NCBI GenBank assembly: GCA_025963185.1
Contig: JAOPVE010000472.1
Location: 1-64,000, forward strand
Reading direction: 5' to 3'
DNA length: 64,000 bases
Source of the DNA: Actinomycetes bacterium
GTDB taxonomy: Bacteria > Actinomycetota > Actinomycetes > Mycobacteriales > Cryptosporangiaceae
In this document: positions 46,206-62,821 of the stretch, piece by piece
Position numbering within the stretch: the first letter of the stretch is position 1
How the letters are laid out: each line of letters begins with the position of its first letter
Notes under the pieces: generated by a model
What the model saw: only the letters and a program-made list of their open reading frames with translations
The model's database searches: none
Told to the model about the DNA's origin: nothing
Position numbers and translations under genes: made by a program

Positions 46206-46344
46206 GGCGGTCCCCGGTCGTTGCTGGTGGTACGAATGCCTCATTATGTACAGAATGTGCGAGTAACGGGCGTTTTAGGTAGTAGCGTCGCGGTGGGCGC
46301 CGTGGGTTGCCGCCCGTGGATCCGAGCCGGGGTGGGGGTAGCGG

Positions 46345-47028
46345 ATGAGTCGGCTGCTGGTCGTGGAGGACGACGCGGACATCGCGCTTGCCCTGAGTCT
46401 GCTCCTGCAGCGGGCCGGGCACGAGGTCGAGCACGCCAAGGACGGCAGGGAAGGACTGCGGGCGATCCATGATCACCGTCCTGACCTGCTTCTTCTCGAC
46501 ATCGGGCTGCCCGGGCTGGACGGCTGGCAGGTGCTCGAGCGGGTGCGCGACATCAGCGACCTGCCGATCCTCATGCTCACGGCGCACGGCCAGGAGAGCG
46601 AGAAGGTGCGCGGCCTGCGCGGCGGCGCCGACGACTACCTGACCAAGCCGTTCACCAACTCCGAGCTCGTCGCGAGGGTCGAGGCGCTGCTGCGGCGGGC
46701 CGGGCCGGCCAGCTGGACCGACGACGTGTACGACGACGGGATCCTCCAGCTCGACCCCGCCCGCCGGACCGTCCACGTCAACGGCGGCGAGATCGGCCTG
46801 ACCCCGACCGAGTTCCGGCTGCTCAACGTGCTCGTCCGGCACCAGGGCGCGCTGTTGAGCCCGGCCCAGCTCCTGGCCCACGCCTGGGACGATCCCACGG
46901 GCATCGCCCCCGAGCGGGTCAAGTTCGCGGTGCTGCGGCTGCGGCGCAAGCTCGGCTGGTCCGACCCGGACACCTCGCCGATCGAGTCGGTCCGCGGCTT
47001 CGGCTACCGTTACCGCCGCCCGGCCTGA
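46345..47028 (+). CDS. OmpR/PhoB-family response regulator
   Basis: A 227-residue regulator with an intact receiver domain (VVEDDADIALAL acidic pocket, phospho-acceptor in LLLLDIGLPGLDG, MLTAHG, and YLTKPF with the conserved lysine) and a C-terminal winged helix (GEIGLTPTEFRLLNVLVRHQG... RVKFAVLRLRRKLG... VRGFGYRYRRP). It is divergent from the degenerate kinase. Because that kinase lacks ATP-binding residues, phosphate must come from another kinase or from a small donor. ATG 46345 follows a GGGGGTAGCGG site. Confidence 0.92.
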   Translation: MSRLLVVEDDADIALALSLLLQRAGHEVEHAKDGREGLRAIHDHRPDLLLLDIGLPGLDGWQVLERVRDISDLPILMLTAHGQESEKVRGLRGGADDYLTKPFTNSELVARVEALLRRAGPASWTDDVYDDGILQLDPARRTVHVNGGEIGLTPTEFRLLNVLVRHQGALLSPAQLLAHAWDDPTGIAPERVKFAVLRLRRKLGWSDPDTSPIESVRGFGYRYRRPA

Positions 47029-47047: not shown

Positions 47048-47097
47048 GAAGCGCGGTAACCGCGGCCGGTCCTGACCGGCCACAGTTACCGCACTTC
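47048..47097. repeat. 50-bp palindromic repeat, copy D
   Basis: Outer arms GAAGCGCGGTAAC and GTTACCGCACTTC (one mismatch), inner arms GGCCGGTC and GACCGGCC perfect. It lies between the convergent response regulator and SipW genes. The SipW gene ends inside the right arm (Glu-Val-Arg-stop). Two extra GAAGTGCGG half-motifs abut it at 47102-47119. Confidence 0.9.
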
Positions 47098-47601
47098 GCG
47101 GGAAGTGCGGGAAGTGCGGGGGTTGCGGCGGCGGCGGGCGCGGAGGGCGGGGATGAGGAACGTCAGCTCCTCGACCAGGATCACGCCGAACAGCACCGCC
47201 AGTGCCAGCTTGAGCCCGACCTGCGTGAACCAGTACAGCCCCGGGCCGGAGTGCGGGAGGTCGGCGACGACCCGGCCGTAGACCGCCGAGGTGGGGACGA
47301 GGGTGGCGTCCGGGGTGCGGTTGGCGTCGCCCTTGACCCGGTAGTACGGATCCCCGCCGGTCTCCCGCACCTCGACCACCCGGTGCGCGATCCGCCGTGG
47401 CGAGCCGGGGCTGGTGTAGACGAGCACGTCCCCGATCCCTACCCGGCCGTGGTCGCGGTGGACTACCAGGGCGTCCCCGGCCTCGATCGCCGGGTGCATG
47501 CTTCCGCTGGTCACGGCCACGACCTGGTACCCGAGCACGAGCCCGCCCAGGGTGACCGCGGCGGAGGCCCCGGCGACGCCGATGAGCACCCAGCGGACCA
47601 C
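47086..47601 (-). CDS. SipW-type signal peptidase I
   Basis: A 171-residue membrane signal peptidase of the archaeal/SipW branch, which uses Ser-His instead of Ser-Lys. Visible parts: an N-terminal helix (residues 3-25), VTSGSMHPAIEAGDALVVHRD with the catalytic serine, GDVLVYTSPGSPRRIAHRVVEV with the catalytic histidine, YRVKGDANRTPD, and a second helix near the C-terminus (about 130-150). In Bacillus, SipW matures the matrix proteins TasA and TapA. Here the gene upstream in the same operon encodes a TasA-like protein, and the divergent giant protein has a similar signal, so both are probable substrates. The last codons and stop derive from repeat copy D. Confidence 0.9.
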   Translation of the reverse strand: MVRWVLIGVAGASAAVTLGGLVLGYQVVAVTSGSMHPAIEAGDALVVHRDHGRVGIGDVLVYTSPGSPRRIAHRVVEVRETGGDPYYRVKGDANRTPDATLVPTSAVYGRVVADLPHSGPGLYWFTQVGLKLALAVLFGVILVEELTFLIPALRARRRRNPRTSRTSREVR

Positions 47602-47654
47602 TCCGGCGATCCGCCGGATGCGGGTGGATCTGGCGGTTTCGCCGCCCCCGGCAG

Positions 47655-48314
47655 TCAGTTGTTCGCCGTCTGCTCGGCGACCAGGTCGAAGGTCGCGGTG
47701 GTGGTCGTGTTCTGGGCCGTCGGGTTGACGTAGGTCGGCAGGCTCGCCTGCAGGCAGAGCGTCTCGTTGGCGCCGCCGGCCAGGGTCCGGTCGCCGGCCT
47801 GGGCGCCCTGGACCGAGCTGCCCACCAGGGCCATGCCCGTGGTCGAGCCGAGGTCGCCCGGCCCGTAGATCACGGTGCCGGTCGAGGCGAATCCCGAGGT
47901 CGTGCAGCTCGTGACCCCGGACTTGACGGTCAGGTCGATCGCGGCGGCGAGCACGTTCTCGGTGGTGGTGCTCCGGATCGCGTACCGCAGCGTCAGCGAT
48001 CCGGCGTTGTTGACCTGGAGGGAGCCGACGACGGTCCCGCCGGGCCGCAGGCTGGACGAGGTGAGCACGGCGCTCGTGGGTGTGGACGAAATGTCCAGAG
48101 TGCCGATCGAGAACGTGTTGGTGGGGATGCTCGTCGTGTCCGTGTACAGCGCGGAGACGACGAGCACGGACACCGAGGCGCCGGAGAGCAGGGTCACCAG
48201 GATTGATCGGCGCAGCCGCCGCAGGCTGTGCCGGTCCGCGCTGCCGGCTGCTGCGTCGGCGCTGGTCACGGGGGTTGCGCCGGCGGCCTGAGGGGAGCGA
48301 GAGGTGATGTTCAT
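47655..48314 (-). CDS. TasA/camelysin-like secreted protein with SipW-type signal
   Basis: A 219-residue exported protein. After a basic stretch (SLRRLRRSILVTLLSGASVSVLVVSALYTD) comes the mature start TDTTSIPTNTFSIGTLDI, matching the TasA/camelysin pattern NTF-x-x-GTLDL after a SipW-type signal. The body has LRPGGTVVGSLQVNNAGSLTLRYAI, like the TasA strand preceding its donor-strand region, and a Cys pair. B. subtilis TasA polymerises into matrix fibres; fibre formation here is inference from family. ATG 48314 is preferred over an ATG at 48344, which has no ribosome site. Transcribed with the SipW gene 53 bp downstream. Confidence 0.82.
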   Translation of the reverse strand: MNITSRSPQAAGATPVTSADAAAGSADRHSLRRLRRSILVTLLSGASVSVLVVSALYTDTTSIPTNTFSIGTLDISSTPTSAVLTSSSLRPGGTVVGSLQVNNAGSLTLRYAIRSTTTENVLAAAIDLTVKSGVTSCTTSGFASTGTVIYGPGDLGSTTGMALVGSSVQGAQAGDRTLAGGANETLCLQASLPTYVNPTAQNTTTTATFDLVAEQTANN

Positions 48315-48370
48315 CGCCAGCTCGCTTTCGCCAAAATCGCCCATCGGGGCAGTCAGAGGTAGTTACTCTC

Positions 48371-48400
48371 TAGAATGGCACAGTCACTCCTTGTGATTAG
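48371..48400 (+). promoter_or_regulatory. promoter region of the giant-protein gene
   Basis: An AT-rich patch in the 124-bp gap between the TasA-like and giant-protein genes. It contains TAGAAT (48371-48376), a -10-like box, and GTGATTAG (48393-48400), related to the GTGATTAC upstream of flp at 55607. Confidence 0.3.
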
Positions 48401-48438
48401 TAAAACCCGCAAACGAGCAGGGGCAGGTGATAATCCCC

Positions 48439-51400
48439 ATGCGGTCCCGCTCCCCGTTTCTCACTGGCCCGGGGGAGGGGCCGATCCGCCTCCTGCTCAC
48501 CGTCGTGCTCTCGATCAGCCTCCTGACCGCCATGCCGGGGATCAGCGCGATCTTCTCGGACACCCAGTCGGTCCCCGGTAACTCGCTCACCTCGAGCTGC
48601 TTCTCGGCCTCGGTCAACACCGTCCAGTCCGGAACCGCCACGAACACGGCGAACGGCACTCAGACCGTCACGATCACGTCCGTCGACACGACCAAGGCGT
48701 TCCTCCAGTTCACGAGCTCGTCCAACCTGAACAGGCCGGTCGGATCCTCGATCGGCGGCCGGATCGCCACCGCCACCACGATCCAGTTCATCCGCTCGAC
48801 CGACGAGGTCACCCCGGCCACGATCACGATCCGCTGGACCGTCACCGAGTACACCTGCGGCGTGCGGGTCCAGCGAGGCAGCACCACCCAGACCGCGGCG
48901 ACGACGAACGTCGGCATCACCCCGGTCGCCTCGCGCAACCAGGCGTTCTTCACCTGGTCGAAGGTCACCGACGCCAGCGCCACCGATTACGACGCCTCGG
49001 TGCAGACCGCGGCCTCGCTGGCCAGCCCCACCAACCTCCAGTTCCGGTCCGAGACCGGGGCCGGGATCACGGCCCCTGGCTGGTACAACACGAGCTGGAG
49101 TTACCGCAAGCTCGTCACCGTCGACTCCACCAAGGTCGGTACCGGCGGGGTCTCGGGCTTCCCGGTGCTGGTCAGCGTCACGGATCCGGACCTCGTGAGC
49201 GCCACCGGCAAGGTGCAGTCGACCGGCAACGACATCCTGTTCACGGACTCCGACGGCACCACGAAGCTCAGCCACGAGATCGAGTCGTTCAACAACACCA
49301 CCGGGACGCTGGTGGCCTGGGTGAAGCTGCCGACCGTCCCGAGTACCGCGGACACCCTCTTCTACCTGTACTACGGCAACGGCGCCGCGGCGAGCCAGCA
49401 GAACGTGGCCGGGGTGTTCACCGACGCCGGCGTCTGGCACCTCAACCAGACGCCCTCGACGTCGCTCACCGATTCCAGCCCCAACGGCAACACCGGCACG
49501 CCCCAGAACATGGCGGCCGGGGCGCAGGTCAGCGGACTGGCCGGCGGCAGCCTCACCCTCGACGGCACGAACGACTACATCTCGACGACCAGCGCGTACA
49601 CGATGGCCACGATGACGGACGTCACCGTCGAGGGCTGGGTGAAGACCACCACCACCGCCGGCACCAAGGTGGTGGGGTTCGAGAACGCGCAGACCGGTAC
49701 CGGCGCCACACACGCCGACCTCCAGCTCTGGCTCGGTACCGACGGCAAGCCGCGCTTCGGCAATTACACCGGCTCGCTCGCCGAGGTCGCGGCGTCCAGC
49801 GTCGCGGTCAACGACGGCATCTGGCACTACCTCGTCGGCACCCGCAACTCCGGTACGAACATGCTCACCCTGTACGTCGACGGCACGTCCCAGGGGACCT
49901 CGGCCACGAGCGGCCGGGACACCTACAGCGGGTACCTGCGGATCGGCTCGTACTCGAACTCGGCCTGGGCGTCCGGGGCGAACGGCTACTTCGCCGGCAG
50001 CGTCGACGAGGTCCGGGTCAAGGGGACTTTCCACGACGCGGCCTGGATCACCACCAACTACAACTCCATCAAGAACCCGTCGACGTTCCTGTCCTGGGGA
50101 AACGAGGACGCCCGCTGGTACAACACCAGCTGGATGTACCGCAAGCGGATCACGATCGACAACACCAAGGTCGACGCCGACCTGACCAACTTTCCCGTCG
50201 AGGTCTCGCTCACCGATGCCGACCTGCCCAACCACGCGCTGGCCAGCGGTAACGACATCCTGTTCACCGCGTCCGACGGCATGACCAAGCTCGACCACGA
50301 GATCGAGACGTACACCTCGGCCACCGGGGCTCTCACCGCCTGGGTCGAGGTGCCGACGGTCTACGACGCCGTCAACAGTTTCTTCTGGATGTACTACGGC
50401 AACCCCGCGGCGGCGAGCCAGCAGAACGCGACCGGCGTGTGGAACAGCCAGAGCGCCTGGCACCTGGACGAGACGCCCGCGGCCACCCTCGCGGATTCGA
50501 GCAGCAGCGCCAACAACGGCACCCCGCAGAGCATGGCGGCGGGCGCGCAGTCCGCCGGCGTCGCGGGCGGCAGCCTGACGTTCGACGGCACGAACGACTA
50601 CGCGTCGACCACGAGCAGCTTCACGATGAGCTCGATGACGACCTACACGCTGGAGGCCTGGTTCAAGACCACCTCCACCGGCGGCTACAAGTTCCTCGGC
50701 TTCGAGGACACCCAGACCGGCACGGCGGCCACCACCGGCGACCGGCAGTTCTGGGTCGGTACCGACGGCAAGGTGCGGTTCGGCGCGTGCCTGAGCGCGT
50801 GCGGCACGTACGTGGGCGTGGCGAGCTCGGCCGCCGTCAACGACGGCAACTGGCACCAGATCGCGGTGTACCGCGCCGGCGGCACGCCGTACTCCGTCTA
50901 CGTCGACGGGGTGCTCCAGGGCACCGGCAGCAGCGCGACCGTCGCCAGCTACACCGGGTACCTCCGGATGGGCAGCTACCGGAACGCCGGCGCCAACTGG
51001 ACCAACGCGGCGACGGGCTACTTCAACGGCAGCGTGGACGAGGTCCGGCTCTCACCCGCCACCGCGCGCGCCCCGGAGTGGATCAAGGCCGAGTACAAGA
51101 ACATCAGCTCACCCGCGACGTTCTACTCGGTGACCGCCGAACAGCGCCGCACCGGCCTGCCCGCGACGATCTACTGGGAGGTCGTCGAGTTCACCAACGC
51201 GGCCGACGTGTGGGTACAGCACGGCACGACCTCGCTGGCCAGCGGATCGGCGTCGGTGGCCGCCACGATCGCCTCGGTCGACCTGACGCGCACGTTCGCG
51301 CAGGTCAGCTTCTCCTCCAGTGGATCCAGCGTGGCGATCGGCCGCCGCCTGCTGAGAGCCCAGCTCACGTCCGCGACGGCCCTGACGATCACCCGAGACG

Positions 51401-54400
51401 TCACCGGCGACGCCATCGAGACGATCGACTACCAGGTTGTCGAGCTGAGGGAGGGATCCAGAGTCCAGTCCGGACTGTCGACGTTCGCGAACGCCACCGC
51501 GACGGCCGCGCCGGCCATGACGAGCCCGCTGGACACGACCAGGGCCAGTGTCCTCACCTCGACGCAGAACGGGGCCGGATCCTCGGGCGGCAGCGGCGCG
51601 TACGTCACCGACGACATCGTCGGCGTCTCGTCGTTCTCGATCGCCGTGACGAACTCGACCACCATCACGCTGACCAGAGCGAACACCAGCGGCATCTCGT
51701 ACGCGGTGTGGTTCGTGGTCGAGTGGGGCGGACCCCGCACGTTCAGTTCCGCGTACGCGTTCCGGCGCGCGCTGTCGGTGACGACCACGACGGCCGCACC
51801 AACCGGCTACACCCTGTCGGTGACGTTCGACCACGCCTCGCTCGTCGCGGCCGGGGACTCACTGGCCTCGGGCGACGACGTGCGGATCGCCCGCTGGACC
51901 GGCAGCGCCTGGACCGAGCTCGACCGGGTGGTCGACGACGCGTCGTCCTGGAACGCGAACACGACCAAGGTGTGGTTCGCGAGCCAAGCCGCGATCGCCG
52001 CCAGCACCACCGACCAGAGCTACTACGCGTTCTACGGCAACCCGTCCGCGACGAGCCCGCCGGCCAGCCAGGGCAACGTGTACCTGCTGGCCGACGGCTT
52101 CGAGTCCGGCGCGGTCACGACGAACTGGGCCCAGCAGACCCAGGCGGCGGGGACCCTGCGGTCGGACTGGTACAACGCCAACTGGAGCTACCGCAAGACG
52201 ATCACGATCGACCACACGCAGGTCTCCAGCACGCTGACGAACTTCCCGGTCGGGGTGTCGCTGACCAGCGACGCGAACATCGGGGCGGCCGCGCGGGCCG
52301 ACGGCTTCGACGTCATGTTCACCTCGTCCGACGGCCTCACGGCGATCCCGTACGAGCGGGAGACGTTCAGCATCGCCGGGAGCGCCGCGACGCTGCTCAT
52401 GTGGGTCAAGCTGCCGTCGATCTCGAACACCGTCGACACGACGTTCTTCCTCTACTACGGCAACTCCAGCGCCACCGACCAGTCGCTCCAGAACGGCGGG
52501 CCGACCGCGGTGTGGGACGCGAACTTCGCGGCGGTCTACCACCTCAACGAGGCCACCGCCGCGGGCACGTACGCGGACTCCACGTCGAACGCCCGCAACG
52601 GCACCTTCAACGGGACGGGAAACATCGTCCGCACGACCGGACAGCTCGGCGGTGCCCAGAGCTTCGACGGTGTCAACGACAAGGTCGACGCCTCGGACTT
52701 CGCCGACAACATCACCGCCCTGACGGTGACCGCGTGGGCGAAGAAGAGCGCCAACACCAACGACGATGCCCTCGTCGGCAAGAGCACCACCTCGAACACT
52801 CCGACGTCGTGGTCGCTCGACACCAACACCACGACGGCTCAGGGCCAGGTCAACACGGGGTCCGTCACGAGCGCGTCGGACGGCACGGTCGGCACCGGCA
52901 CCTGGAACAGGTTCGCGATGACGTTCGGCGGATCCAGCCTGCGGATGTACCTCAACCTCAGCGCCGGCACGGCGACGGCCACCGGCGGCGCGACCATCGC
53001 CCACACGGCGACGCCCGTCCGGCTCGGCAGCATGCAGACCAACGGCAACTACTACCAGGGCGAGCTCGACGAGGTGCGGATCTCGACGGTCGCCCGCTCC
53101 ACCGCGTGGCTCCAGGCCGAGTACTACAACCAGATGTCCGGATCGACGTTCCTGTCGGCCGGCACCGAAACCGCCTCGACCATCAGCACCTGGTACAGCA
53201 CGTCGTGGAACTACCGCAAGCAGATCACCATCGACCACACGCAGGTCCCCAGCACGCTGACGAACTTCCCGGTCGGGGTGTCGATCGCCAGCGACGCGAA
53301 CATCGGCGCCAACGCCCGCGCGGACGGCTACGACGTCGTGTTCACGTCGTCCGACGGCCTGACGGCGATCCCGTACGAGCGGGAGACCTTCAGCGTCGCC
53401 AGCGGCAACGCGACCCTGATGATGTGGGTCAAGCTGCCCTCGATCTCGAACACAGTCGACACGACGTTCTACCTCTACTACGGCAACGCATCCGCCACCG
53501 ACCAGTCGCTCCAGAACGGCGGCCCGACCGCGGTGTGGGACGCGAACTTCGCGGCCGTCTACCACTTGAACGAGGCCAGCGCGGCGGGCACGTACGTGGA
53601 CTCGACCTCCAACGGACGCAACGGCACGTTCAACGGCACTGGCGGACTCGTCCGCGGCACTGGCCGCCTCGGCGGAGCGCAGCTGTTCGACGGCACCAAC
53701 GACAACGTCGACGTGTCCGACTTCGCCGACAACATCACCACCCTCACGGTGTCGGCGTGGATCAACAAGACGACGGTGAACAGCCAGGACGTGGCGGTGT
53801 CGAAGAGCAACACGGCCAATACGCCCTCGTCGTGGGACATCGAGACCGACAGCACGACCCCGTGGGGCGGGGTCAACGCCGGCGGGGTGCAGTACGTCTC
53901 GGACGGCACGGCCTCGGCGAGCACGTGGTCGAAGCTGACGATGACGTTCAGCAGTTCGACGGTCGCGACCAGGTTCAACGGGAATTCGGGTAGCTCGCAG
54001 GCCTCGTCGGGCGCCACGGTGTCGAACAACGCCTACCCGGTGCGGATCGGCAGCATGAACGGCACCGGTAACCGCTTCAAGGGCTACATCGACGAGGTGC
54101 GCATCTCCACCACCGCGCGGTCGGCGGCCTGGCTGACCGCGGAGTACGACAACCAGATGTCCGGATCGACGTTCCTCACCGTTGCCGCGCAGGAGGTTGC
54201 CGTCACGGCCAACCCGTTCACGATCGCGACGGACCAGGTGCACAGCGGCACCTACTCGCTCAAGGCCGCGACGAACATCGGCGGCGACGACTGGCTCGTC
54301 GCGAACGGGCTGTCGACCGAGACCGGCCTGCGGATCGACGGGTACTGGCGGGCCTCGAACCCCACCACGCTGGGCGCCTCGATGGGCGTGCGGGCCGGAT

Positions 54401-55176
54401 CCACGAGTACGGCGAACGCGTACGAGCTGAACCACTCGAACGCGGGCGGCTGGTCCGTCGGCAAGAACGTGGCCGGCACCTACACGTCGTTCAGCTCCGT
54501 CGCCGAGGGGTCCTGCCTGGCCGCGAACACCTGGACCAAGATCTCGATGCTCGTGCAGTCCAACCTGGTCAGGGCCTACTGCAACACCTCGACCGGGCTC
54601 GTTCCGGCCGCCTCCTGGTACACCGACGCCGGATCGACGTTCGCGTCCGGATCCGCGACGATCATGAACCACGCGCTGGTGGCCGGACAGAACTGGTGGG
54701 TCGACGACGTGACGGTCCGGCGGCTCGTCGATGCCGAGCCCGTCGTGGCGATGGCCCCGAGGACGTTCGCCGATCCGCTGGACGACTGGACGATCGTCAA
54801 CAGCCACGACGCGAACCTGAGCTTCACGACCACCAACCCCGACCTGCACGACAACGACAGTTCGCGGGCGACGCGCAGCACGACGTCGTCGGTGAACATC
54901 ATCTGGTACCGGCCGGGGATCACGGGCTACCGAATGGTGATCGACCACTGGGTCAGCGAGACGGTGACCAATCCGACGTTCGCGTATTCGGTGGACGGGT
55001 CCTCGTGGGGTGCCATCGCGGGCGCTCCGCTGAATCTCGGCGGCGCGAGCTGGCTGCGGTACGAGTATCGGTGGATCGGGCTCCCGGCGGGCACGAACTA
55101 CATCCGCATCACGCTGAACGGCACGGCGGGACAGATCTGGGCGCAGCAATTGTCGAGAGCCGAGTTCTACTACTGA
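48439..55176 (+). CDS. giant secreted DUF2341-LamG modular protein
   Basis: A 2,245-residue exported protein. The N-terminus has a membrane helix (LLLTVVLSISLLTAMPG) followed by SAIFSDTQSVPGNSLTS, a SipW-type cleavage context. Four DUF2341 plus LamG modules begin at residues 215, 560, 1244 and 1585; each starts W-Y-x-x-x-W-x-Y-R-K and has YLYYGN, then a jelly-roll with FDGTNDY and SVDEVRI-type strands. Residues about 40-190 and 905-1100 hold another repeated beta domain (VQSG, ELREGSRVQSG). The last 330 residues are a further beta-rich region without LPXTG or a membrane helix, so it is not sortase-anchored. LamG folds bind glycans or proteins, so an adhesin or matrix role is likely. ATG 48439 is chosen; GTG 48427 is possible. 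Confidence 0.88.
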   Translation: MRSRSPFLTGPGEGPIRLLLTVVLSISLLTAMPGISAIFSDTQSVPGNSLTSSCFSASVNTVQSGTATNTANGTQTVTITSVDTTKAFLQFTSSSNLNRPVGSSIGGRIATATTIQFIRSTDEVTPATITIRWTVTEYTCGVRVQRGSTTQTAATTNVGITPVASRNQAFFTWSKVTDASATDYDASVQTAASLASPTNLQFRSETGAGITAPGWYNTSWSYRKLVTVDSTKVGTGGVSGFPVLVSVTDPDLVSATGKVQSTGNDILFTDSDGTTKLSHEIESFNNTTGTLVAWVKLPTVPSTADTLFYLYYGNGAAASQQNVAGVFTDAGVWHLNQTPSTSLTDSSPNGNTGTPQNMAAGAQVSGLAGGSLTLDGTNDYISTTSAYTMATMTDVTVEGWVKTTTTAGTKVVGFENAQTGTGATHADLQLWLGTDGKPRFGNYTGSLAEVAASSVAVNDGIWHYLVGTRNSGTNMLTLYVDGTSQGTSATSGRDTYSGYLRIGSYSNSAWASGANGYFAGSVDEVRVKGTFHDAAWITTNYNSIKNPSTFLSWGNEDARWYNTSWMYRKRITIDNTKVDADLTNFPVEVSLTDADLPNHALASGNDILFTASDGMTKLDHEIETYTSATGALTAWVEVPTVYDAVNSFFWMYYGNPAAASQQNATGVWNSQSAWHLDETPAATLADSSSSANNGTPQSMAAGAQSAGVAGGSLTFDGTNDYASTTSSFTMSSMTTYTLEAWFKTTSTGGYKFLGFEDTQTGTAATTGDRQFWVGTDGKVRFGACLSACGTYVGVASSAAVNDGNWHQIAVYRAGGTPYSVYVDGVLQGTGSSATVASYTGYLRMGSYRNAGANWTNAATGYFNGSVDEVRLSPATARAPEWIKAEYKNISSPATFYSVTAEQRRTGLPATIYWEVVEFTNAADVWVQHGTTSLASGSASVAATIASVDLTRTFAQVSFSSSGSSVAIGRRLLRAQLTSATALTITRDVTGDAIETIDYQVVELREGSRVQSGLSTFANATATAAPAMTSPLDTTRASVLTSTQNGAGSSGGSGAYVTDDIVGVSSFSIAVTNSTTITLTRANTSGISYAVWFVVEWGGPRTFSSAYAFRRALSVTTTTAAPTGYTLSVTFDHASLVAAGDSLASGDDVRIARWTGSAWTELDRVVDDASSWNANTTKVWFASQAAIAASTTDQSYYAFYGNPSATSPPASQGNVYLLADGFESGAVTTNWAQQTQAAGTLRSDWYNANWSYRKTITIDHTQVSSTLTNFPVGVSLTSDANIGAAARADGFDVMFTSSDGLTAIPYERETFSIAGSAATLLMWVKLPSISNTVDTTFFLYYGNSSATDQSLQNGGPTAVWDANFAAVYHLNEATAAGTYADSTSNARNGTFNGTGNIVRTTGQLGGAQSFDGVNDKVDASDFADNITALTVTAWAKKSANTNDDALVGKSTTSNTPTSWSLDTNTTTAQGQVNTGSVTSASDGTVGTGTWNRFAMTFGGSSLRMYLNLSAGTATATGGATIAHTATPVRLGSMQTNGNYYQGELDEVRISTVARSTAWLQAEYYNQMSGSTFLSAGTETASTISTWYSTSWNYRKQITIDHTQVPSTLTNFPVGVSIASDANIGANARADGYDVVFTSSDGLTAIPYERETFSVASGNATLMMWVKLPSISNTVDTTFYLYYGNASATDQSLQNGGPTAVWDANFAAVYHLNEASAAGTYVDSTSNGRNGTFNGTGGLVRGTGRLGGAQLFDGTNDNVDVSDFADNITTLTVSAWINKTTVNSQDVAVSKSNTANTPSSWDIETDSTTPWGGVNAGGVQYVSDGTASASTWSKLTMTFSSSTVATRFNGNSGSSQASSGATVSNNAYPVRIGSMNGTGNRFKGYIDEVRISTTARSAAWLTAEYDNQMSGSTFLTVAAQEVAVTANPFTIATDQVHSGTYSLKAATNIGGDDWLVANGLSTETGLRIDGYWRASNPTTLGASMGVRAGSTSTANAYELNHSNAGGWSVGKNVAGTYTSFSSVAEGSCLAANTWTKISMLVQSNLVRAYCNTSTGLVPAASWYTDAGSTFASGSATIMNHALVAGQNWWVDDVTVRRLVDAEPVVAMAPRTFADPLDDWTIVNSHDANLSFTTTNPDLHDNDSSRATRSTTSSVNIIWYRPGITGYRMVIDHWVSETVTNPTFAYSVDGSSWGAIAGAPLNLGGASWLRYEYRWIGLPAGTNYIRITLNGTAGQIWAQQLSRAEFYY
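52168..54190 (+). repeat. tandem near-identical DUF2341-LamG modules 3 and 4
   Basis: Two consecutive units of about 1.02 kb, the second starting at 53191. Long stretches match at DNA level, for example around the segment encoding DQSLQNGGPTAVWDANFAAVYHLNEA. Modules 1 and 2 (from 49081 and 50116) are clearly more diverged. This points to a recent duplication and a hotspot for recombination. Confidence 0.8.
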
Positions 55177-55663
55177 TAGCGCGGCGCCTGGCTGGCGGGG
55201 GACCGTGGCAGCGGACGACGCTGCCGCCGGCCGGAAACGAATCCGCCGACGGCAGCGCCCGGCTTCGGGCGGGCACGAATCCTGCGCTGAATTAATTGCG
55301 GTCCTGGCCCCACACCGGTGTCCGCCTTGCGCGGCAATGCTCCGCCCGGCAGGAAAAACCTATCAGGACCGTGGCCGCGGGGAGCGTTTATCCCGCGTCC
55401 GCTAGGGCCCTTTTTCACGCCGGGAAATCAGGGCACTGAAGCACGTCAGCGGCTATTTACCGCGTTCGGCGGCGGCCGGAAAGGGGGCGGCACGGACCGC
55501 GGTCTGACCGAACGGCTGACCGACTCCGGCCGGATGGCGCCCGGAGGCCACACCGTACGGCCGTGTCTCGAAGTAAGCACTGTAAGTAATCATAAAGCTA
55601 CCCACAGTGATTACCAGTACAGCCGCCGTGCCCCAGGATGGGCCGTCACGCAAGGAGACACGG
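55177..55663. other. 487-bp intergenic region before the Tad operon
   Basis: No credible gene. The last 100 bp are much more AT-rich than the surroundings (about 55565-55620) and probably hold the promoter of the pilus operon. A GGGCCC followed by TTTTT near 55405 has no real stem-loop. No copy of the 50-bp repeat is present. Confidence 0.6.
55586..55614. promoter_or_regulatory. spaced inverted repeat upstream of flp
   Basis: GTAATCA (55586-55592) and TGATTAC (55608-55614) are exact reverse complements with 15 nt between, 22 bp centre to centre, about two helical turns. It sits in an AT-rich island 50 bp before the flp start. Candidate binding site for a dimeric regulator. Confidence 0.45.
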
Positions 55664-55861
55664 ATGCTCAACCTCGTCATCGGCTACCTCGCCACCAGCG
55701 CCTCGCGGATCGCCCGGCGCGACGGCTCGGACAACGGTGCGACCGCCGTGGAGTACGGCCTGATGATCGCGCTGGTCGCGGCCGTGATCGTCGTCGCCGT
55801 CACCGCGCTCGGCGGCACCCTGTCAGGGATCTTCAACTCGGTCGTGGGCGCCATCAGCTGA
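55664..55861 (+). CDS. flp: Flp/Fap-type pilin
   Basis: A 65-residue prepilin. The class III processing site is NGATAVEYGL: cleavage after Gly leaves ATAVEY with the conserved Glu+5 and Tyr+6, followed by the hydrophobic helix GLMIALVAAVIVVAVTALGG and a short tail. ATG 55664 has an AAGGAG site 7 nt upstream. It is the structural subunit of the pilus built by the following genes. A prepilin peptidase (TadV/CpaA) is needed but is not in the window. Confidence 0.92.
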   Translation: MLNLVIGYLATSASRIARRDGSDNGATAVEYGLMIALVAAVIVVAVTALGGTLSGIFNSVVGAIS

Positions 55862-55991
55862 CGGACCGCCGTGCGCTCGCCGCGGCCACCGGGTCTCGGC
55901 GAGCGCGGTCACGTGCTGAGCGGTCAGATCCGGTCCGGACGTGCCGATAGGACACGCGCAACCGCCCCGCACCGGACAGGAGACCGCCCCG

Positions 55992-56828
55992 ATGACCCGC
56001 CGCATCGCGCCCATCCTGCTGGCGATACTGCTCGCGGGGCTCGGCACGGTCGCGGTACTCGCCTACGTCAAGGGCGCCGACGCTCGCGCGCTCGCCGGGA
56101 AGAAGGCCGTCACCGTCGTGGTGGCAGCCAAGCTGATCCCCGCCGGCACCCCAGCCGGGCAGGTGCGGGACGGCGGGTTCACCGCGCGGGTGCAGATGCC
56201 GGCCGGGACCATCCCGGCCGGGACCCTCGGCGAGATCCCCGCCAGCCTCGACAGCCTCGTCACGACCGCCGACATCCAGGCCCAGCAGCTGCTGGTCAAG
56301 GGCATGTTCGGCGTCGAGAAGCAGGCCGTCGCCGGGCTGCCGGTGCCCGAGGGGAAGATCGCGGTCAGCGTCCAGCTCCAGACGTCCGCGACCGTGGCCG
56401 GGTACGTCGTGCCCGGCTCGCAGATCGCGGTCTTCGACACGTTCAACCGGATGGAGGGCAAGACCGCCAAGGTGCCCGCCGGGGACGGGATCACGCAGCG
56501 GCACGAGTACGTCCAGGCCACCCGGGTGCTCCTGGCGAAGGCGCTGGTCGTGGCGATCGGATCCAACGGGACCGACGGCACCACCCAGGCGCCCGCGCCG
56601 GATCCGGCACCGAGCCCGTCGGCCGCTGCGGGCGGTGCCGCCGGATCGTCCGGTGCCGCGCCCACGCAGTCCACCGGGATGCTCATGGTCACGCTCGCCG
56701 TCAGCCAGTCCGAGGCCGAGCGGCTGATTCAGGGTGCCCAGACCGGGACGCTCTACCTTGGCCTGCTCAACGACACGTCCGTGGTCAAGCCCGGCCCCGG
56801 CGTCGACAACGACTCGATGTTCCCGTGA
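55992..56828 (+). CDS. cpaB: Flp pilus assembly protein CpaB/RcpC
   Basis: A 278-residue protein with an N-terminal membrane helix (residues 6-26), a SAF domain (about 40-105: VTVVVAAKLIPAGTPAGQVRDGG... PAGTIPAGTLGEIPA), and a CpaB/RcpC C-terminal region (VSVQLQTSATVAGYVVPGSQIAVFDT). An Ala/Pro/Ser-rich insert lies near residues 200-225. It resides outside the membrane facing the wall, probably guiding the pilus. ATG 55992 follows GGAGACCGCCCCG. Its stop overlaps the tadZ start by 4 nt. Confidence 0.88.
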   Translation: MTRRIAPILLAILLAGLGTVAVLAYVKGADARALAGKKAVTVVVAAKLIPAGTPAGQVRDGGFTARVQMPAGTIPAGTLGEIPASLDSLVTTADIQAQQLLVKGMFGVEKQAVAGLPVPEGKIAVSVQLQTSATVAGYVVPGSQIAVFDTFNRMEGKTAKVPAGDGITQRHEYVQATRVLLAKALVVAIGSNGTDGTTQAPAPDPAPSPSAAAGGAAGSSGAAPTQSTGMLMVTLAVSQSEAERLIQGAQTGTLYLGLLNDTSVVKPGPGVDNDSMFP

Positions 56829-58021
56829 CCCTGGTCTACGAGCGCCGCGGGTCGGCGGCACAACAGCTCGCCGACATCCTCGGACCGGCCACCCGCGTCG
56901 TCGGCAGCCTCGACGAGCTGTCCGCGCTGCTGGCCGGCAACCCCGAGGAACTGCTCGTCGTGCTCGGTGCCGGTACCGACCTGGCGGACGCCGTTCGCTT
57001 CGCCGTCGCGCACCGGATCACCCACCCGGCGCTCGGCGTCGTGCTGCTGCGCGAGGAAGTCGACGCCACGGTGCTCGCCGAGGCGCTGCGCGCCGGGATC
57101 CGCGAGGTGGTGGCGAGCGCGGAGATGCTGACGGTCCGGGCGGCCTGCGAACGGTCCCTCGCGCTGTCCCGGCTGCTCGCGAAGCCGACCTGGGCCAGCG
57201 TGCCCGAGCCGGAGGCCACGGCCCCCGAGGGCGGCGAGGCCAAGATCGTCACGGTCTTCGCGCCGAAGGGCGGGTGCGGCAAGACCACGCTCGCCACCAA
57301 CCTCGCCGTCGCGCTGTCGGCTGGCGGCGCGCACCGGGTCTGCCTCGTGGACCTCGACCTGGCGTTCGGCGACGTGGCGATCATGCTCCAGCTTCCCCCC
57401 GACCGGAACATCGGCGAGGCCGTGTCGATCGTGGACCGGCTCGACGAGACGGCCGTGCGCTCGATGCTGACCCGGTACCGGCCCGGCGTCGACACCCTGC
57501 TCGCGCCCCCGACCCCGGCCGACGGCGAGAAGGTCACCCGCGGGGTCGTCACCGAGGTACTGCGGATCGCCCGCTCGATGTTCGACTACATCGTCATCGA
57601 CACCGCACCCGCGTTCAACGAGCAGGTGCTCGCCGCCCTCGACGCCTCGCACAAGTACGTGCTGCTCGCCGCCCCCGACATCCCCACGCTGAAGAACCTG
57701 CGGGTGGCACTCGACACCTTCGACCTGCTCGGCTTCCCCGCCGACCGGCGGCTCGTCGTGCTCAACCGGGCCGACGCCAAGGTGGGCCTGACGGCGGCCG
57801 ACATCGCGCGGATCCTGCGCACGCCGATCGCCGCCAACATCCCGTCGAGCCGGGACGTGCCCGTCTCGATCAACCGTGGCGTGCCGATCGTCGCGGACCA
57901 GCCGAACCACCCGGTCGCCAAGGCCGTGCGCGACTTCGCGCAGGTCAGCCTGTTGCGGGAGCCCGCCACGGCCGCCCGCACCCCCGGCCGCCGCCTGTTC
58001 GGGCCGAGGAAGCAGAAGTGA
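56825..58021 (+). CDS. tadZ: Tad pilus localisation ATPase TadZ/CpaE
   Basis: A 398-residue MinD/ParA-like protein. Residues 1-125 form a receiver-like domain lacking clear phosphorylation residues, followed by a deviant Walker A APKGGCGKTTLATNLA, DLDLAFGDVAIML (Walker A') and YIVIDTAPAFNE (Walker B). TadZ marks the cell site where the pilus machine assembles. GTG 56825 overlaps the cpaB stop; its own stop overlaps the tadA start by 4 nt. Confidence 0.9.
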   Translation: MTLVYERRGSAAQQLADILGPATRVVGSLDELSALLAGNPEELLVVLGAGTDLADAVRFAVAHRITHPALGVVLLREEVDATVLAEALRAGIREVVASAEMLTVRAACERSLALSRLLAKPTWASVPEPEATAPEGGEAKIVTVFAPKGGCGKTTLATNLAVALSAGGAHRVCLVDLDLAFGDVAIMLQLPPDRNIGEAVSIVDRLDETAVRSMLTRYRPGVDTLLAPPTPADGEKVTRGVVTEVLRIARSMFDYIVIDTAPAFNEQVLAALDASHKYVLLAAPDIPTLKNLRVALDTFDLLGFPADRRLVVLNRADAKVGLTAADIARILRTPIAANIPSSRDVPVSINRGVPIVADQPNHPVAKAVRDFAQVSLLREPATAARTPGRRLFGPRKQK

Positions 58022-59397
58022 ACCTCGCCGACCGGATCGCCCAGCGCCGGCCCGCCGATCCGCCGCCCGCCGAGGCCCCCGCGCGCCAGACCGCGAGTGA
58101 GCCCGCGCGCCGGGCCACCGATCCGCTCGCGCCGATCCGCAGGCGCGTACACGCCGAGCTGATGGGGGTGCTCGGGTCGCAGCTGCACCACGATCCGGCC
58201 GAGGAGGACGAGTTCGAGGAGCGGGTGCGGACCGCGCTGTCCGAGGTCCTGGCCAGGGAGGAAGCGCCCCTCACGGCGGCCGACCGGGCCAAGGTGGCCG
58301 CCGACGTGGCCGACGAGGTGCTCGGGCACGGGCCGATCGAGCCGCTGCTGCGCGATCCCGAGGTCAGCGAGATCATGGTCAACGGCCCGCGGCGGATCTT
58401 CGTGGAGCGCAAGGGCAAGCTCACGATGGTCGACGCCGAGTTCGTCGACGAGAACCACCTGCGCAGGGTCATCGACAAGATCGTGTCGCGGATCGGCCGC
58501 CGGGTGGACGAGGCCAGCCCCATGGTCGACGCGCGGCTGCCCGACGGGAGCCGGGTCAACGCCGTGGTCCCGCCGATCGCGCTGGACGGGTCGTCGCTGA
58601 CGATCCGGAAGTTCTCCGAGGATCCGCTGACCGTCGAGGACCTGATCACGTTCGGCACCCTCACCAGGGCGACGGCGGACCTGCTCGACGCGTGCGTCCG
58701 GGGCAGGCTGAACATCGTCGTGTCCGGGGGCACCGGATCCGGCAAGACGACGACCTTGAACGTGCTCTCCCGGTTCATCCCGTCCGACGAGCGGATCGTC
58801 ACCATCGAGGACGCCGCCGAACTCCAGCTCGGGCAGGACCACGTGCTGCGGCTGGAGTCGCGCCCGGCCAATGCCGAGGGGCGCGGCGCGATCACGATCC
58901 GGGACCTGGTGCGGAACTCGCTGCGGATGCGCCCCGACCGGATCGTCGTCGGGGAGGTCCGCGACGGGGCCGCGCTCGACATGTTGCAGGCGATGAACAC
59001 CGGCCACGACGGATCCCTCACCACGGCCCACGCGAACACCCCCCGGGACTGCCTGGCCCGGCTGGAGACGATGGTGCTCATGGCCGGCATGGACCTGCCG
59101 GTGCGCGCGATCCGCGAGCAGGTCGCCTCGGCGGTGGACCTGATCATCCAGGTCGCCAGGCTCAAGGACGGCAGCCGCAAGATCACGCACGTCACCGAGG
59201 TGGCCGGCATGGAGGGTGACATCGTCACGCTCCAGGACCTGTTCGTCTTCGACTACAAGGCCGGCCAGGACGCGCTGGGCCGCTTCCAGGGCACCCTCGT
59301 CTCGACCGGCCTGCGGCCGCGGTTCCTGGAGAAGATCGGGGACGTCGGGGTGACCGTGCCGTCCGAGGTGTTCTCCTTCCCCGGGGACGTCCGGTGA
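58018..59397 (+). CDS. tadA: Tad pilus assembly ATPase TadA/CpaF
   Basis: A 459-residue secretion ATPase that powers pilus extension (and probably retraction). It has the N-terminal domain with GPIEPLLRDPEVSEIMVNGP, Walker A GGTGSGKTTTLNVL, an Asp box TIEDAAELQL, Walker B RMRPDRIVVGEVRDGAALDML, and a His box TGHDGSLTTAHANTPRD. All catalytic motifs are intact. The first 50 residues are a Pro/Arg-rich leader. It is coupled on both sides by 4-nt overlaps. Confidence 0.94.
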   Translation: MNLADRIAQRRPADPPPAEAPARQTASEPARRATDPLAPIRRRVHAELMGVLGSQLHHDPAEEDEFEERVRTALSEVLAREEAPLTAADRAKVAADVADEVLGHGPIEPLLRDPEVSEIMVNGPRRIFVERKGKLTMVDAEFVDENHLRRVIDKIVSRIGRRVDEASPMVDARLPDGSRVNAVVPPIALDGSSLTIRKFSEDPLTVEDLITFGTLTRATADLLDACVRGRLNIVVSGGTGSGKTTTLNVLSRFIPSDERIVTIEDAAELQLGQDHVLRLESRPANAEGRGAITIRDLVRNSLRMRPDRIVVGEVRDGAALDMLQAMNTGHDGSLTTAHANTPRDCLARLETMVLMAGMDLPVRAIREQVASAVDLIIQVARLKDGSRKITHVTEVAGMEGDIVTLQDLFVFDYKAGQDALGRFQGTLVSTGLRPRFLEKIGDVGVTVPSEVFSFPGDVR

Positions 59398-61277
59398 GAG
59401 CCCGCCTCGCGATCCTGGCCGGGCTCGCGCTGGCCCTCGCTCCCGCGGCCGCGCAGGCAGCCCCGGCCGCCGACCTGGCCGTCAGCGGGGTCCGCTCGCA
59501 GGCCGGATCGGTGAGCTTCCTGGTCTCGGCCCGCGGACTCCCGGCCGGGGCCTCGCTGGCCGACGCGCGGCTGACCGTCCGCGCCGGGACCGTCGACCTG
59601 CCCACCCGGATCGGCACCGCCGAGCCCGCCATCCGGACCGTCCTCGTCGTGGTCGACACCAGCGGATCCATGGCCGGTACCCGGATCGCGGCCGCCCGCT
59701 CAGCAGCCACCGCCTACGGCCGGACCCTGCCCGCCGACGTCCGGATCGGCCTGGTCACGGTCGCCGACCACGCCACGACAGCGCTCGCCCCCACCACGGA
59801 CCGGTCCGCGTTCGCGGCCGCGGTCGGCAGGCTCACCGCCGCCGGGGGCACCGCGCTCTACGACGGGGTCGCCCAGGCCGCCCGCCTGCTCGGGACGGCC
59901 GGGCTCGCCCAGACCCGGCTGCTCGTGCTCTCGGACGGGGCGGACACCTCGTCCCGGACCGGCGCCGGCGGGGCGCTCGCCGAGCTACTCGCCGCCGGGG
60001 CGCCCGCCGACGTGGTGGGTTTCCAGATGCAGCCGGGCGCGCAGGTCAAGGAGCTGGCCGAGGGGTCCGGGGGCCGCCTGTTCTCGGCCGGGGACGCAAC
60101 GGCGCTCGCCGACGCGTTCCGGTTCGCCGCCGGATCCTTCACCGCCCCGGTCCGGATCACGGCCAGTGTGCCCGCCGCCCTCGACGGCCGGACCCTGGCG
60201 ATCAGCGTCCAGGCCAACCTCGCGGGCCGGACCGTCACCGCCCAGACTCCGCCCGCCCACCTCACCGGCGAGCGGATCGACGCCGCACCCCGGCCCGCGA
60301 TCGTTCGGACGCCGCCCGGCTGGCAGGTCAGGGCGGTCGGCCTGCTGGTGTTCAGCGGGCTGTTCCTGCTGCTCGCGGTGGGCCTGCGCCCGGCGCTCGC
60401 CCGAGTACACCAGCGCCGCCGACTCGGCGAGATCGGCCGCTTCACCGTCGCCGCCAGCGGCACCACGGGCGGCGGACGCGGCCCGGTCGTCCGGAGCGCC
60501 CTGCAGCTCAGCGAGCGGATCATCACCAAGCGCGGCAGCGGCGACCGGACCGCGGCCGAACTGGACCGGGCCGGACTCACCCTGCGCCCGCACGAGTGGC
60601 TGGTCCTGCGGGCCGTCGCCGCCGCCGCGGGCGCACTGCTCGGCGTGCTGGCCGGAGCCGGGATCGGGCTGCTCGTGGGCGCGGCCGGCGGCTGGCTCGC
60701 CACCCGCTTCTACCGGACCCAGCGCACCGCCCGCCGGGCCAAGAAGTTCGGCGCCCAGCTCCCGGACGCGCTCCAGCTCGTCGTCGGATCCCTGCAGTCC
60801 GGCTTCTCGCTGTCCCAGGCCATGAGCACGGTCGTGCGGGACACCCCGGATCCGCTCGGCCCCGAGCTCGGCCGCGCGCTGGCGAGCACCCGGCTCGGCG
60901 GCACCCTCGAAGACGGCCTCGACGCGGTCGCCGAGCGCGTCGGCAGCCAGGACCTGGGCTGGGCCGTGATGACGATCCGGATCCAGCGGGAGGTCGGCGG
61001 CAACCTCGCCGAAGTGCTGGAGACCGCCGTGGTCACCATGCGCGAGCGCGAGGGGCTGCGGCGGCACGTGCGGGCGCTGTCCGCCGAGGGCCGGCTCTCG
61101 GCGTACGTGCTCACGGCCATGCCGATCGGGGTGGCGGGCTGGATGTTCATGATCCGCCGGGAGTACCTGGCGCCGCTGTACACGACCGGCCTCGGGATCG
61201 TCATGCTCGTCGCGTCCGTCGTCATGGTGTGCTTCGGCGCCTGGTGGATGAGCAAGCTGGTCAAGGTGGACGTCTGA
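59394..61277 (+). CDS. tadB: TadB platform protein fused to an N-terminal von Willebrand A domain
   Basis: A 627-residue protein. Residues 1-23 are a Sec signal peptide. Residues about 80-260 form a VWA domain with a complete MIDAS: DTSGSM (DxSxS), the Thr in GGTALYDGV and the Asp in VLSDGADTSS. A membrane helix (about 315-338), a cytoplasmic linker, two more helices (about 400-440) and the T2SSF/GspF domain (about 455-590: QLVVGSLQSGFSLSQAMSTVV and IQREVGGNLAEVL) follow, then two C-terminal helices. The T2SSF part is the inner-membrane platform; the VWA part faces outward and could bind a metal-dependent ligand or the pilin. VWA-TadB fusions occur in actinobacteria; function untested as far as I know. 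Confidence 0.9.
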   Translation: MRARLAILAGLALALAPAAAQAAPAADLAVSGVRSQAGSVSFLVSARGLPAGASLADARLTVRAGTVDLPTRIGTAEPAIRTVLVVVDTSGSMAGTRIAAARSAATAYGRTLPADVRIGLVTVADHATTALAPTTDRSAFAAAVGRLTAAGGTALYDGVAQAARLLGTAGLAQTRLLVLSDGADTSSRTGAGGALAELLAAGAPADVVGFQMQPGAQVKELAEGSGGRLFSAGDATALADAFRFAAGSFTAPVRITASVPAALDGRTLAISVQANLAGRTVTAQTPPAHLTGERIDAAPRPAIVRTPPGWQVRAVGLLVFSGLFLLLAVGLRPALARVHQRRRLGEIGRFTVAASGTTGGGRGPVVRSALQLSERIITKRGSGDRTAAELDRAGLTLRPHEWLVLRAVAAAAGALLGVLAGAGIGLLVGAAGGWLATRFYRTQRTARRAKKFGAQLPDALQLVVGSLQSGFSLSQAMSTVVRDTPDPLGPELGRALASTRLGGTLEDGLDAVAERVGSQDLGWAVMTIRIQREVGGNLAEVLETAVVTMREREGLRRHVRALSAEGRLSAYVLTAMPIGVAGWMFMIRREYLAPLYTTGLGIVMLVASVVMVCFGAWWMSKLVKVDV

Positions 61278-62188
61278 TGCTGGCCATCGGGCTGTCGGCC
61301 CTGTTCACGGCGATCCTCGTGGTCAGCCTCAGCGTGTCGGCGGCGCGCGCCGGGCGGGCGGACGTGGCCCGCACGATGGCGCTCGCCGAGCGCCTGGTGC
61401 CCGCCGCGGGCGAACCGGCGGACCGCTCCTTCACCGACCGGATCATCGTCCCGCTCACCGCCAGGCTCGGCGGCCTCGGGCGCGCGCTCACCCCGTCCGG
61501 AGCGGTGGCCCGGCTGCGCCGTCAGCTCGACTACGCGGGCAACCCGGTCGACTGGACGGCCGAGCGGGTGGTCCGGATCAAGGGAGTCGCCCTCGTCATG
61601 CTGGGCGCCGGCGCCGGACTGTTCGCGAGCGTCTACACGGGACCGCCCCGGGTGGCGCTCGCCGTGGCCGGCGGCGCGGTCTTCGGCTTCTTCCTGCCCG
61701 ACCTGCTCGTCTACAACAACGGGCTCAAGCGCCAGGAGTCGATCAAGCGGACCCTCCCGGACGTGCTCGACATGCTCACGGTCTGCGTCGAGGCCGGACT
61801 CGGGTTCGACGCGGCCACGGCCCAGGTGGCGCGCAACAGCCGTGGTCCGCTGGCGGGGGAGTTCACCCGGATCCTGCGGGAGATGCAGATCGGCAAGTCC
61901 CGCGCCGAGGCCCTGCGCAGCCTCGGCGAGCGGACCACGGTCCCCGAGCTGCGCAGCTTCTCCTCGGCGATCGTGCAGGCCTCCGAGCTGGGGATCCCGG
62001 TCGCCAAGGTGCTCCGCGAGCAGGCCAAGGAGATGCGGATCAAGCGCCGCCAGCACGCCGAGGAACTGGCCCAGAAGGTCCCGATCAAGATCCTGTTCCC
62101 GATGCTCTTCTGCCAGTTCCCGGCCCTGTTCGTGGTGATCATGGGCCCAGGCGTCCTCCGCATGGTCCACATGTTCTCCGCCAGCTGA
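61277..62188 (+). CDS. tadC: Tad pilus platform protein TadC
   Basis: A 303-residue membrane protein, partner of TadB. It has an N-terminal helix, two helices near residues 100-140, the T2SSF domain (DVLDMLTVCVEAGLGFDAATAQVARNS, EFTRILREMQIGKSRAEALRSLGERT), and a C-terminal helix FPALFVVIMGPGVLRMV. The start ATG shares its A with the tadB stop. It ends the operon: no TadE/TadF minor pilins or TadV peptidase follow. Confidence 0.92.
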   Translation: MLAIGLSALFTAILVVSLSVSAARAGRADVARTMALAERLVPAAGEPADRSFTDRIIVPLTARLGGLGRALTPSGAVARLRRQLDYAGNPVDWTAERVVRIKGVALVMLGAGAGLFASVYTGPPRVALAVAGGAVFGFFLPDLLVYNNGLKRQESIKRTLPDVLDMLTVCVEAGLGFDAATAQVARNSRGPLAGEFTRILREMQIGKSRAEALRSLGERTTVPELRSFSSAIVQASELGIPVAKVLREQAKEMRIKRRQHAEELAQKVPIKILFPMLFCQFPALFVVIMGPGVLRMVHMFSAS

Positions 62189-62201: not shown

Positions 62202-62441
62202 ATGCGCTCGATCACGGTCCAGCTCGACGCCGAGGCACAAGCCGCGCTGGCCACCCTCACCGCCGACGGCACGAGCCAATCCGCCGCAATTCGGGAGGCG
62301 ATTCTGGACGCCTACGACTGCAAGCGCAGCGCTCAACCTCGGACCGAGACCGCGCCCCTGGCAGCCGACCCGGAGGACCAGGCGGAGGCCCGCGCCGTAC
62401 TTGCAGAGCTGGACTCGCCGCCCCTTCGCGAAGTGCGGTAA
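62202..62441 (+). CDS. ribbon-helix-helix (antitoxin-like) protein
   Basis: A 79-residue protein whose first 45 residues form an RHH DNA-binding fold (ITVQLDAEAQAALATLTADGTSQSAAIREAILDAY), as in VapB/CopG-type antitoxins. The acidic C-terminal tail would normally bind a toxin, but no toxin gene follows: the next gene is a convergent XRE regulator. Its last residues (Glu-Val-Arg) and stop come from palindromic repeat copy E, so the repeat may have replaced the original 3' end. Possibly an orphan antitoxin or a plain regulator. Confidence 0.75.
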   Translation: MRSITVQLDAEAQAALATLTADGTSQSAAIREAILDAYDCKRSAQPRTETAPLAADPEDQAEARAVLAELDSPPLREVR

Positions 62442-62479
62442 CCGCGGCCGGTCGGGACCGGCTCCAGTTACCGTACTTC
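62430..62479. repeat. 50-bp palindromic repeat, copy E
   Basis: Outer arms GAAGTGCGGTAAC and GTTACCGTACTTC (one G-T pair), inner arms GGCCGGTC and GACCGGCT. It lies between the convergent RHH and XRE genes and supplies the terminal Glu-Val-Arg codons and TAA stop to both. Confidence 0.9.
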
Positions 62480-62821
62480 GCCAGGGGTGCTCGGCAGCGG
62501 CGCCGTCGCTCGGCGGTTGGCGGTTGATGCGTGCCCCAACCGCACGATGAGCTCGGTGCCCAGCGCCGCCGCTAGCCGTTGCAGAACCGGAATCGTCGGC
62601 ACGGTGCCTCCTCCTTCGAAGCGGGCGACTGCGGACTGCGTCATACCGGACTCGCCGGCAAGCTGCGCCTGACTCCATCCGCGCTGTTCTCGGCGAGCAC
62701 GTACCGCGGCGCCGAGCTCGGAGGCGAGCCTGGCAGCGTCGTACGCCGCGGTGGCTCCGCTCTCGCCGAGACGCTGATCGCGCAGCTCGGACCAGCGTCC
62801 GTCGTCAGCCGTTCTCGCCAT
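62468..62821 (-). CDS. XRE-family transcriptional regulator
   Basis: A 117-residue DNA-binding protein. The helix-turn-helix is VRARREQRGWSQAQLAGESGMTQSAVARFEGGGTVPTIPVLQRLAAALG (about residues 40-90). The N-terminal helix DAARLASELGAAV resembles HigA-type antitoxins. No toxin partner is adjacent. An inverted repeat overlaps its start codon, so it probably represses itself. Its C-terminal Glu-Val-Arg and stop derive from repeat copy E. Confidence 0.85.
   Translation of the reverse strand: MARTADDGRWSELRDQRLGESGATAAYDAARLASELGAAVRARREQRGWSQAQLAGESGMTQSAVARFEGGGTVPTIPVLQRLAAALGTELIVRLGHASTANRRATAPLPSTPGEVR

Follow-up and report, generated by a model that had tools for sequence, protein, structure and literature searches.

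The TasA fibres of Bacillus have been worked out, and the question that we address here is where such fibres might obtain adhesive specificity. It is raised by a locus in a fragmented actinomycete genome assembly (547 contigs), of which we analyzed a stretch of 64,000 nucleotides, hereafter called the window. A gene for a SipW-type signal peptidase and a gene for a TasA/camelysin-like protein are found there next to the divergent gene of a giant secreted protein with DUF2341 and LamG domains (Table 1). We consider it rather probable that this locus encodes a SipW-matured extracellular fibre system of the TasA type with a LamG lectin-domain adhesin as its partner, present here in a giant DUF2341 version.

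Table 1. Coordinates of the features of the window and of the SipW-LamG fusions found in related genomes.
Feature	Position	Strand	Product or content	Basis
SipW-type (ER-type, Ser-His) signal peptidase I	47086..47601	(-)	171 aa, two membrane segments	TIGR02228, family alignment
TasA/camelysin-like fibre subunit candidate (P0002)	47655..48344	(-)	229 aa	PF12389; TasA structures by profile
Intergenic region between divergent TasA-like and giant starts	48345..48426	.	82 bp	
Giant secreted protein	48427..55176	(+)	2,249 aa	Pfam DUF2341 x4, Laminin_G_3 x4; hydrophobicity scan
SipW-type signal context of giant, SAIFSDTQSVPGNSLTS	48544..48594	(+)	residues 40-56	signal HMM, shuffles
tad/Flp pilus cluster	55607..62188	(+)	Flp pilin, CpaB, CpaE, CpaF, VWA-TadB, TadC	Pfam, NCBIfam, small-ORF list
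SipW-LamG fusion	L211 706-2418		beside TasA-like gene	
SipW-LamG fusion	L215 1492-3159		beside TasA-like gene	
SipW-LamG fusion	L194 739-2349		beside TasA-like gene	

An earlier note on this DNA had claimed a Ser-His peptidase of the SipW type, and this is borne out by a TIGR02228 match of 76.5 bits (cut-off 51.85) and by active-site motifs of the Ser-His instead of the Ser-Lys kind (Ser34 in SGSM, His73 in IAHR) in an alignment with other SipW proteins. The KGDAN...D motif is present as well. With the Bacillus-specific SipW model NF046067, the window peptidase scores well below the cut-off of 190; by path length in a tree, it is nearest to the SipW proteins associated with LamG proteins, a placement without support. 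Its gene lies 53 bp 3' of the TasA-like gene on the same strand. Divergent genes for a histidine kinase and a response regulator adjoin the SipW gene (44724-47028 of the window). Two-component genes occur within 5 kb of 6 of the 45 other TasA-like loci, none of them in the window's clade, and were rejected as a general partner of SipW/TasA on these counts.

The earlier note had also described the neighbouring protein as TasA-like, counting its 229 residues as 219 from an internal ATG. This description stands: Pfam model PF12389 matches at 29.3 bits (gathering score 22.5), over residues 65-125 only, and the solved structures of TasA come up with E 1.2e-8 when a profile built from 31 actinobacterial relatives is used for the search. 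The single sequence matches the TasA structures 8aur and 5of1 of the PDB with E about 0.002, and PF12389 recognizes 23 of the 31 relatives at E 0.01. A second collinear stretch near the C-terminus (consensus ntlqgktttatfsftAtq) matches TasA, by itself not significantly. In the equivalog model of B. subtilis TasA, NF046066, the window protein reaches 24.7 bits against a cut-off of 450, and the detectable likeness of the actinobacterial proteins to B. subtilis TasA is limited to the N-terminal region and the short C-terminal motif. Judged by these sequence comparisons, the window protein is best regarded as a distant relative of TasA and not as TasA itself. In a test for a TasA-like jelly roll, the single-sequence model of its fold had a pLDDT of 34.

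The fibre interface of TasA, with its donor strand and proline box, is built by F29, P62, and Q232 (PMC10151520). These residues correspond to Y67, P101, and Q225 of the window protein, and the respective columns of the TasA-like family hold an aromatic residue in 60 of 64 sequences, Pro in 60 of 64, and Gln in 43 of the 57 that are ungapped; a counterpart of TasA F200 was not identified in the window protein. The N-termini of the same family (n=64) share an Ala (63/64) followed two residues on by an aromatic residue (60/64), an Asp (47), and then a Gly (60). Since B. subtilis TasA carries Phe at P2' of its SipW-type cleavage site (PMC10269814), the conserved Ala would be the -1 residue and the aromatic residue P2' in this family. 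SipW is thereby predicted to cut the window protein after Ala65, with LYTDTTSIPTNTF as the mature start. A paralogue with 45% identity is encoded on another contig of the genome (L030, G000:C532, 4021-4653), and this short contig carries neither a SipW nor a LamG gene.

To compare the genomic surroundings of such proteins, we searched the class with the TasA-like profile, which matched 51 of 395 genomes, and retrieved the flanking DNA, up to 20 kb, of 46 actinobacterial TasA-like loci. A scan of genome contigs with the window's SipW protein alone gave no match, and the TasA-like alignment contains no stretch of sufficient conservation for such a scan. At 43 of these 46, a SipW gene lies within 1.1 kb, and at 39 within 250 bp; the contig of one of the three loci that have none is very short. 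Together, the TasA-like and SipW genes form a genuine, stable conserved unit. In the genomes examined, no other such pair was seen to have the giant DUF2341 form beside it. Of the co-occurrence suggested by the earlier note, the SipW and TasA-like part therefore held up and the giant did not, and a conserved trio of DUF2341 protein, SipW, and TasA was rejected, as no such trio was seen at the other loci examined. In two genomes of family f119 (L166, 1-5850, and L167), three TasA-like genes are accompanied by a SipW gene and by a gene for a large protein; that of L166, with about 1,950 residues and no Pfam match above cut-off, is a second large protein beside SipW/TasA.

The giant protein of the window has 2,249 residues (2,245 counted from the ATG at 48439) and is laid out as a SipW-type signal, beta-rich linker regions, four DUF2341-LamG units, and a C-terminal region, in which neither the sequence nor a hydrophobicity scan revealed an LPXTG-like motif or a membrane segment at the C-terminus. 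The domain matches and the shuffle tests described below agree with its previous annotation as a giant DUF2341-LamG protein with a SipW-like export signal. Its gene is outside the operon of the TasA-like/SipW pair, and the region between the divergent starts is possibly a shared promoter region; no sigma-70-like consensus was found in it. One DUF2341-LamG unit was modelled as a ConA-like lectin fold at pLDDT 91, and Foldseek returned generic ConA-like folds only, among them binding domains of unrelated clostridial proteins, which share 9-14% identity with the unit and reach query-normalised TM-scores of no more than about 0.5. Such matches of a model would tell fold and not function, and glycan binding by the giant is not proven by them.

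DUF2341 matches that exceed the cut-off occur in 2 of 399 genomes from the order and in 17 of 397 from the phylum. The closest relatives of the giant's repeat unit, at about 50% identity, are those of DUF2341-LamG proteins from three Lentzea species (L080-L082). The Lentzea proteins have about 1,565 residues and ordinary Sec signals, and the flanks fetched around their genes hold no SipW, TasA-like, or tad genes; the window giant, in contrast, is larger, carries a SipW-type signal, and has SipW, TasA-like, and tad genes beside it. At the other actinobacterial DUF2341 loci, several of which are short contig ends, we likewise saw no SipW, TasA-like, or tad genes nearby. Next to the Lentzea genes are two small surface-protein genes, one of them weakly WxLIP-like.

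What links the giant to its neighbours is its N-terminus (SAIFSDTQSVPGNSL), which resembles that of the TasA-like protein (SALYTDTTSIPTNTF). The signal scored 12.7 bits with the signal HMM of the family and 16.5 bits with the clade model, values that were reached by 1 and 2 of 3,000 segment shuffles, respectively. The Lentzea relative that was tested scored about 0 on the signal HMM. With Ala before an aromatic P2' residue, the context in the giant fits SipW-type cleavage (PMC10269814); the giant would be cut after Ala41, with Phe at P2', and the mature starts would be alike, A/IFSDTQSVPGNSL in the giant and A/LYTDTTSIPTNTF in its neighbour. The match spans about 15 residues past the cleavage site, and the score of the giant against the window's TasA-like N-terminus was reached by 1 of 20,000 shuffles and surpassed by none of 27,075 18-mers from the other ORFs of the window. 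Among the 64 TasA-like N-termini, the six that match the giant best are those of L166, L167, L149, the window, L152, and the paralogue on C532, and all six fall within a supported set of 13 members around the window. In B. subtilis, the N-termini of TapA and TasA are near-identical (AFHDI and AFNDI), alongside the donation of a strand by TapA to TasA (PMC10151520, PMC9674648). The likeness between the giant and its neighbour may reflect shared peptidase recognition only, and since it would arise equally if both proteins merely needed one peptidase, docking of the two is a step that we infer.

A LamG protein accompanies the SipW/TasA pair in relatives of the window as well. At five loci (L149, L152, L153, L157, and L160), the operon order is TasA-like gene, SipW gene, and a gene for a LamG protein with a SipW-type signal; this third protein has roughly 300-350 residues and one Laminin_G_3 domain above the gathering score. 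Its N-terminus best matches, of all 64, that of the TasA-like protein from its own operon in three of these five cases and not in the other two. In a tree of the 64 TasA-like proteins, the five LamG-operon members form one group, which is sister to the window protein and its C532 paralogue (97/88 support). The same search detected no LamG neighbour at the other approximately 40 TasA-like loci; the corresponding Fisher value, 8e-7, is overstated, as a single origin would be enough. Searching in reverse, from a single LamG protein, we uncovered a sixth TasA-SipW-LamG operon (G796, L191). Beside the TasA-like gene of three further genomes from three families (G812, G866, and G952), SipW and LamG are fused in one polypeptide, in which the second membrane segment of SipW is followed by a linker, a second SipW-type signal, and then the LamG domain, an arrangement to be expected if a peptidase and its own substrate are joined. 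With the third gene of the sister clade and the fusions taken together, a LamG partner for the fibre thus appears to recur as a design. At the sequence level, LamG proteins recur as predicted substrates of SipW and companions of TasA, and in the window this partner is represented or replaced by the divergent giant.

In the fibre system that we propose, SipW would cleave both the TasA-like protein and the giant, a co-maturation that is well supported by their signals. The freed N-terminus of the TasA-like protein would serve as donor strand, so that the subunits could polymerise into a thin fibre as in Bacillus, and the near-copy of this strand on the giant would plug into an exposed TasA-like subunit as TapA does. 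Attachment of the giant by its N-terminal strand is probable on the analogy with TapA and TasA of B. subtilis, from which docking on the fibre is proposed; fibre assembly and strand docking we infer from the same comparison. The long arm of four DUF2341-LamG units would thereby be held at an end of the fibre, or cap it, and by binding polysaccharide or some other surface it might act as an adhesin or cross-link the matrix. Among the relatives, this role would fall to the roughly 300-residue single-LamG protein, encoded by the third gene or fused to SipW. The role of accessory or adhesin partner that the earlier note gave to the giant is in part upheld, by the SipW-type signal matched to the neighbour and by LamG as recurrent third gene or fusion partner; it is weakened by the divergent orientation of the giant gene, by the Sec signals of the Lentzea relatives, and by the finding that no other examined genome has the giant form beside a SipW/TasA pair.

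Instead, SipW might process independent surface proteins that never assemble with each other: the giant would then be a separate secreted adhesin that has only the export route in common with the TasA-like protein, which would itself form fibres or a surface layer. Proteins other than TasA that carry SipW-type signals, Ig-like and FnIII-like ones among them, are often encoded next to SipW. In this genome, a second SipW-type peptidase gene (L031, G000:C333, 1232-4812) adjoins that of a protein with an F5/8 type C domain and a signal of this type; cleavage recognition by itself could account for similar N-termini. However, the match runs on for about 15 residues past the cleavage site, the TasA-like proteins that it fits most closely are from the same clade, and a LamG protein is specifically recurrent in the window's sister clade. 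We regard co-maturation without physical assembly as unlikely, though still a contender. Two further small proteins at L031 have N-termini that look alike.

Missing from the earlier note was a complete tad/Flp cluster that starts about 430 bp 3' of the giant gene and runs in the same direction. Its VWA domain is fused to TadB, and no TadE-like gene was recognised in it. Since archaeal type IV pilus loci also encode DUF2341 proteins, which are proposed tip adhesins there (PMC4858521), the cluster is a serious rival partner of the giant, which could be the adhesin of this pilus and stand beside SipW/TasA only incidentally. A transformation screen in Methanococcus also picked up a DUF2341 gene along with pilin genes (PMC10133366), and the SipW/TasA pair of genome G013 is likewise next to tad genes. 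Against this, the giant has a SipW-type signal, no tad genes were seen in the stretches examined around other actinobacterial DUF2341 loci, and the giant is absent from nine other tad clusters whose flanks were fetched (around L242-L250), namely those of eight related genomes and the second cluster of the same genome (contig C303); it is thus no conserved member of tad clusters. The pair in G013 is the only 1 of 46 near tad genes, and the cluster was rejected as a conserved partner of SipW/TasA on this count. We hold a tad adhesin to be quite improbable. A chance neighbourhood, in which the giant would be an independently acquired modular surface protein functionally unconnected with either neighbour, would agree with the rarity of DUF2341 in the order, with the different surface-gene context of the nearest relatives in Lentzea and their weak WxLIP-like match, and with a gene that is not co-directional with the pair, but is hardly credible given the SipW-type signal in place of the plain Sec signal of the Lentzea proteins, the specific match to the neighbour's N-terminus, and the recurrent LamG partner of the sister clade.

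The locus is a variant of the SipW/TasA kind and not a new kind. It resembles the tapA-sipW-tasA operon of B. subtilis in that a SipW-type peptidase gene adjoins that of a TasA-like protein, and in that the N-terminus of a partner resembles that of the fibre subunit (AFHDI in TapA, AFNDI in TasA; PMC10151520); unlike in that operon, the partner is a divergently encoded DUF2341-LamG protein of 2,249 residues unrelated to the Ig-fold TapA. As in the sipW-tasA-capP(bc1280)-calY locus of Bacillus cereus, SipW and TasA-like genes occur with a third, non-TapA protein. CapP governs filament assembly and is described as chaperone-like (PMC13082335), and the giant, with its four lectin-fold units, is set apart from it by this description. 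With the actinobacterial TasA-SipW-LamG operons (L149, L152, L153, L157, L160, and L191) and fusions (L194, L211, and L215), the window has in common the clade of its TasA-like protein, a SipW peptidase, and a LamG protein whose signal is of the SipW type; their LamG protein, however, has about 300 residues and one LamG domain and is encoded co-directionally or fused to SipW, and that of the window is a divergent DUF2341 giant. The archaeal pilus proteins (PMC4858521) share with the giant the DUF2341 domain, a large surface protein, and a pilus cluster nearby, and differ from it in that the giant has a SipW-type signal and SipW/TasA neighbours, next to a pilus of the tad/Flp type whose relatives are found without a giant.

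Literature searches that combined SipW, TasA, or camelysin with either actinobacteria or LamG, in a collection with subscription papers mostly outside it, brought up no account of such a system. Tentatively, and with more doubt than we attach to our reading of this one locus, we suggest that actinobacteria have a distinct class of TasA-SipW-LamG fibres, in which a lectin protein would be built onto TasA-type fibres by an N-terminal mimic of the donor strand, sometimes as a SipW-LamG fusion with an internal SipW-type signal, and here grown into a DUF2341-LamG adhesin of 2,249 residues. If true, this would be a Gram-positive counterpart of the tip adhesins of donor-strand pili, without usher or sortase. 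The recurrent LamG partner with its subunit-like N-terminus offers a directly testable model of an adhesin-bearing donor-strand fibre in Gram-positive bacteria. Inspection by eye of the region 3' of tadC (62202-62821 of the window) revealed a small ribbon-helix-helix-like ORF and a convergent helix-turn-helix ORF, which are possibly related to toxin-antitoxin systems.
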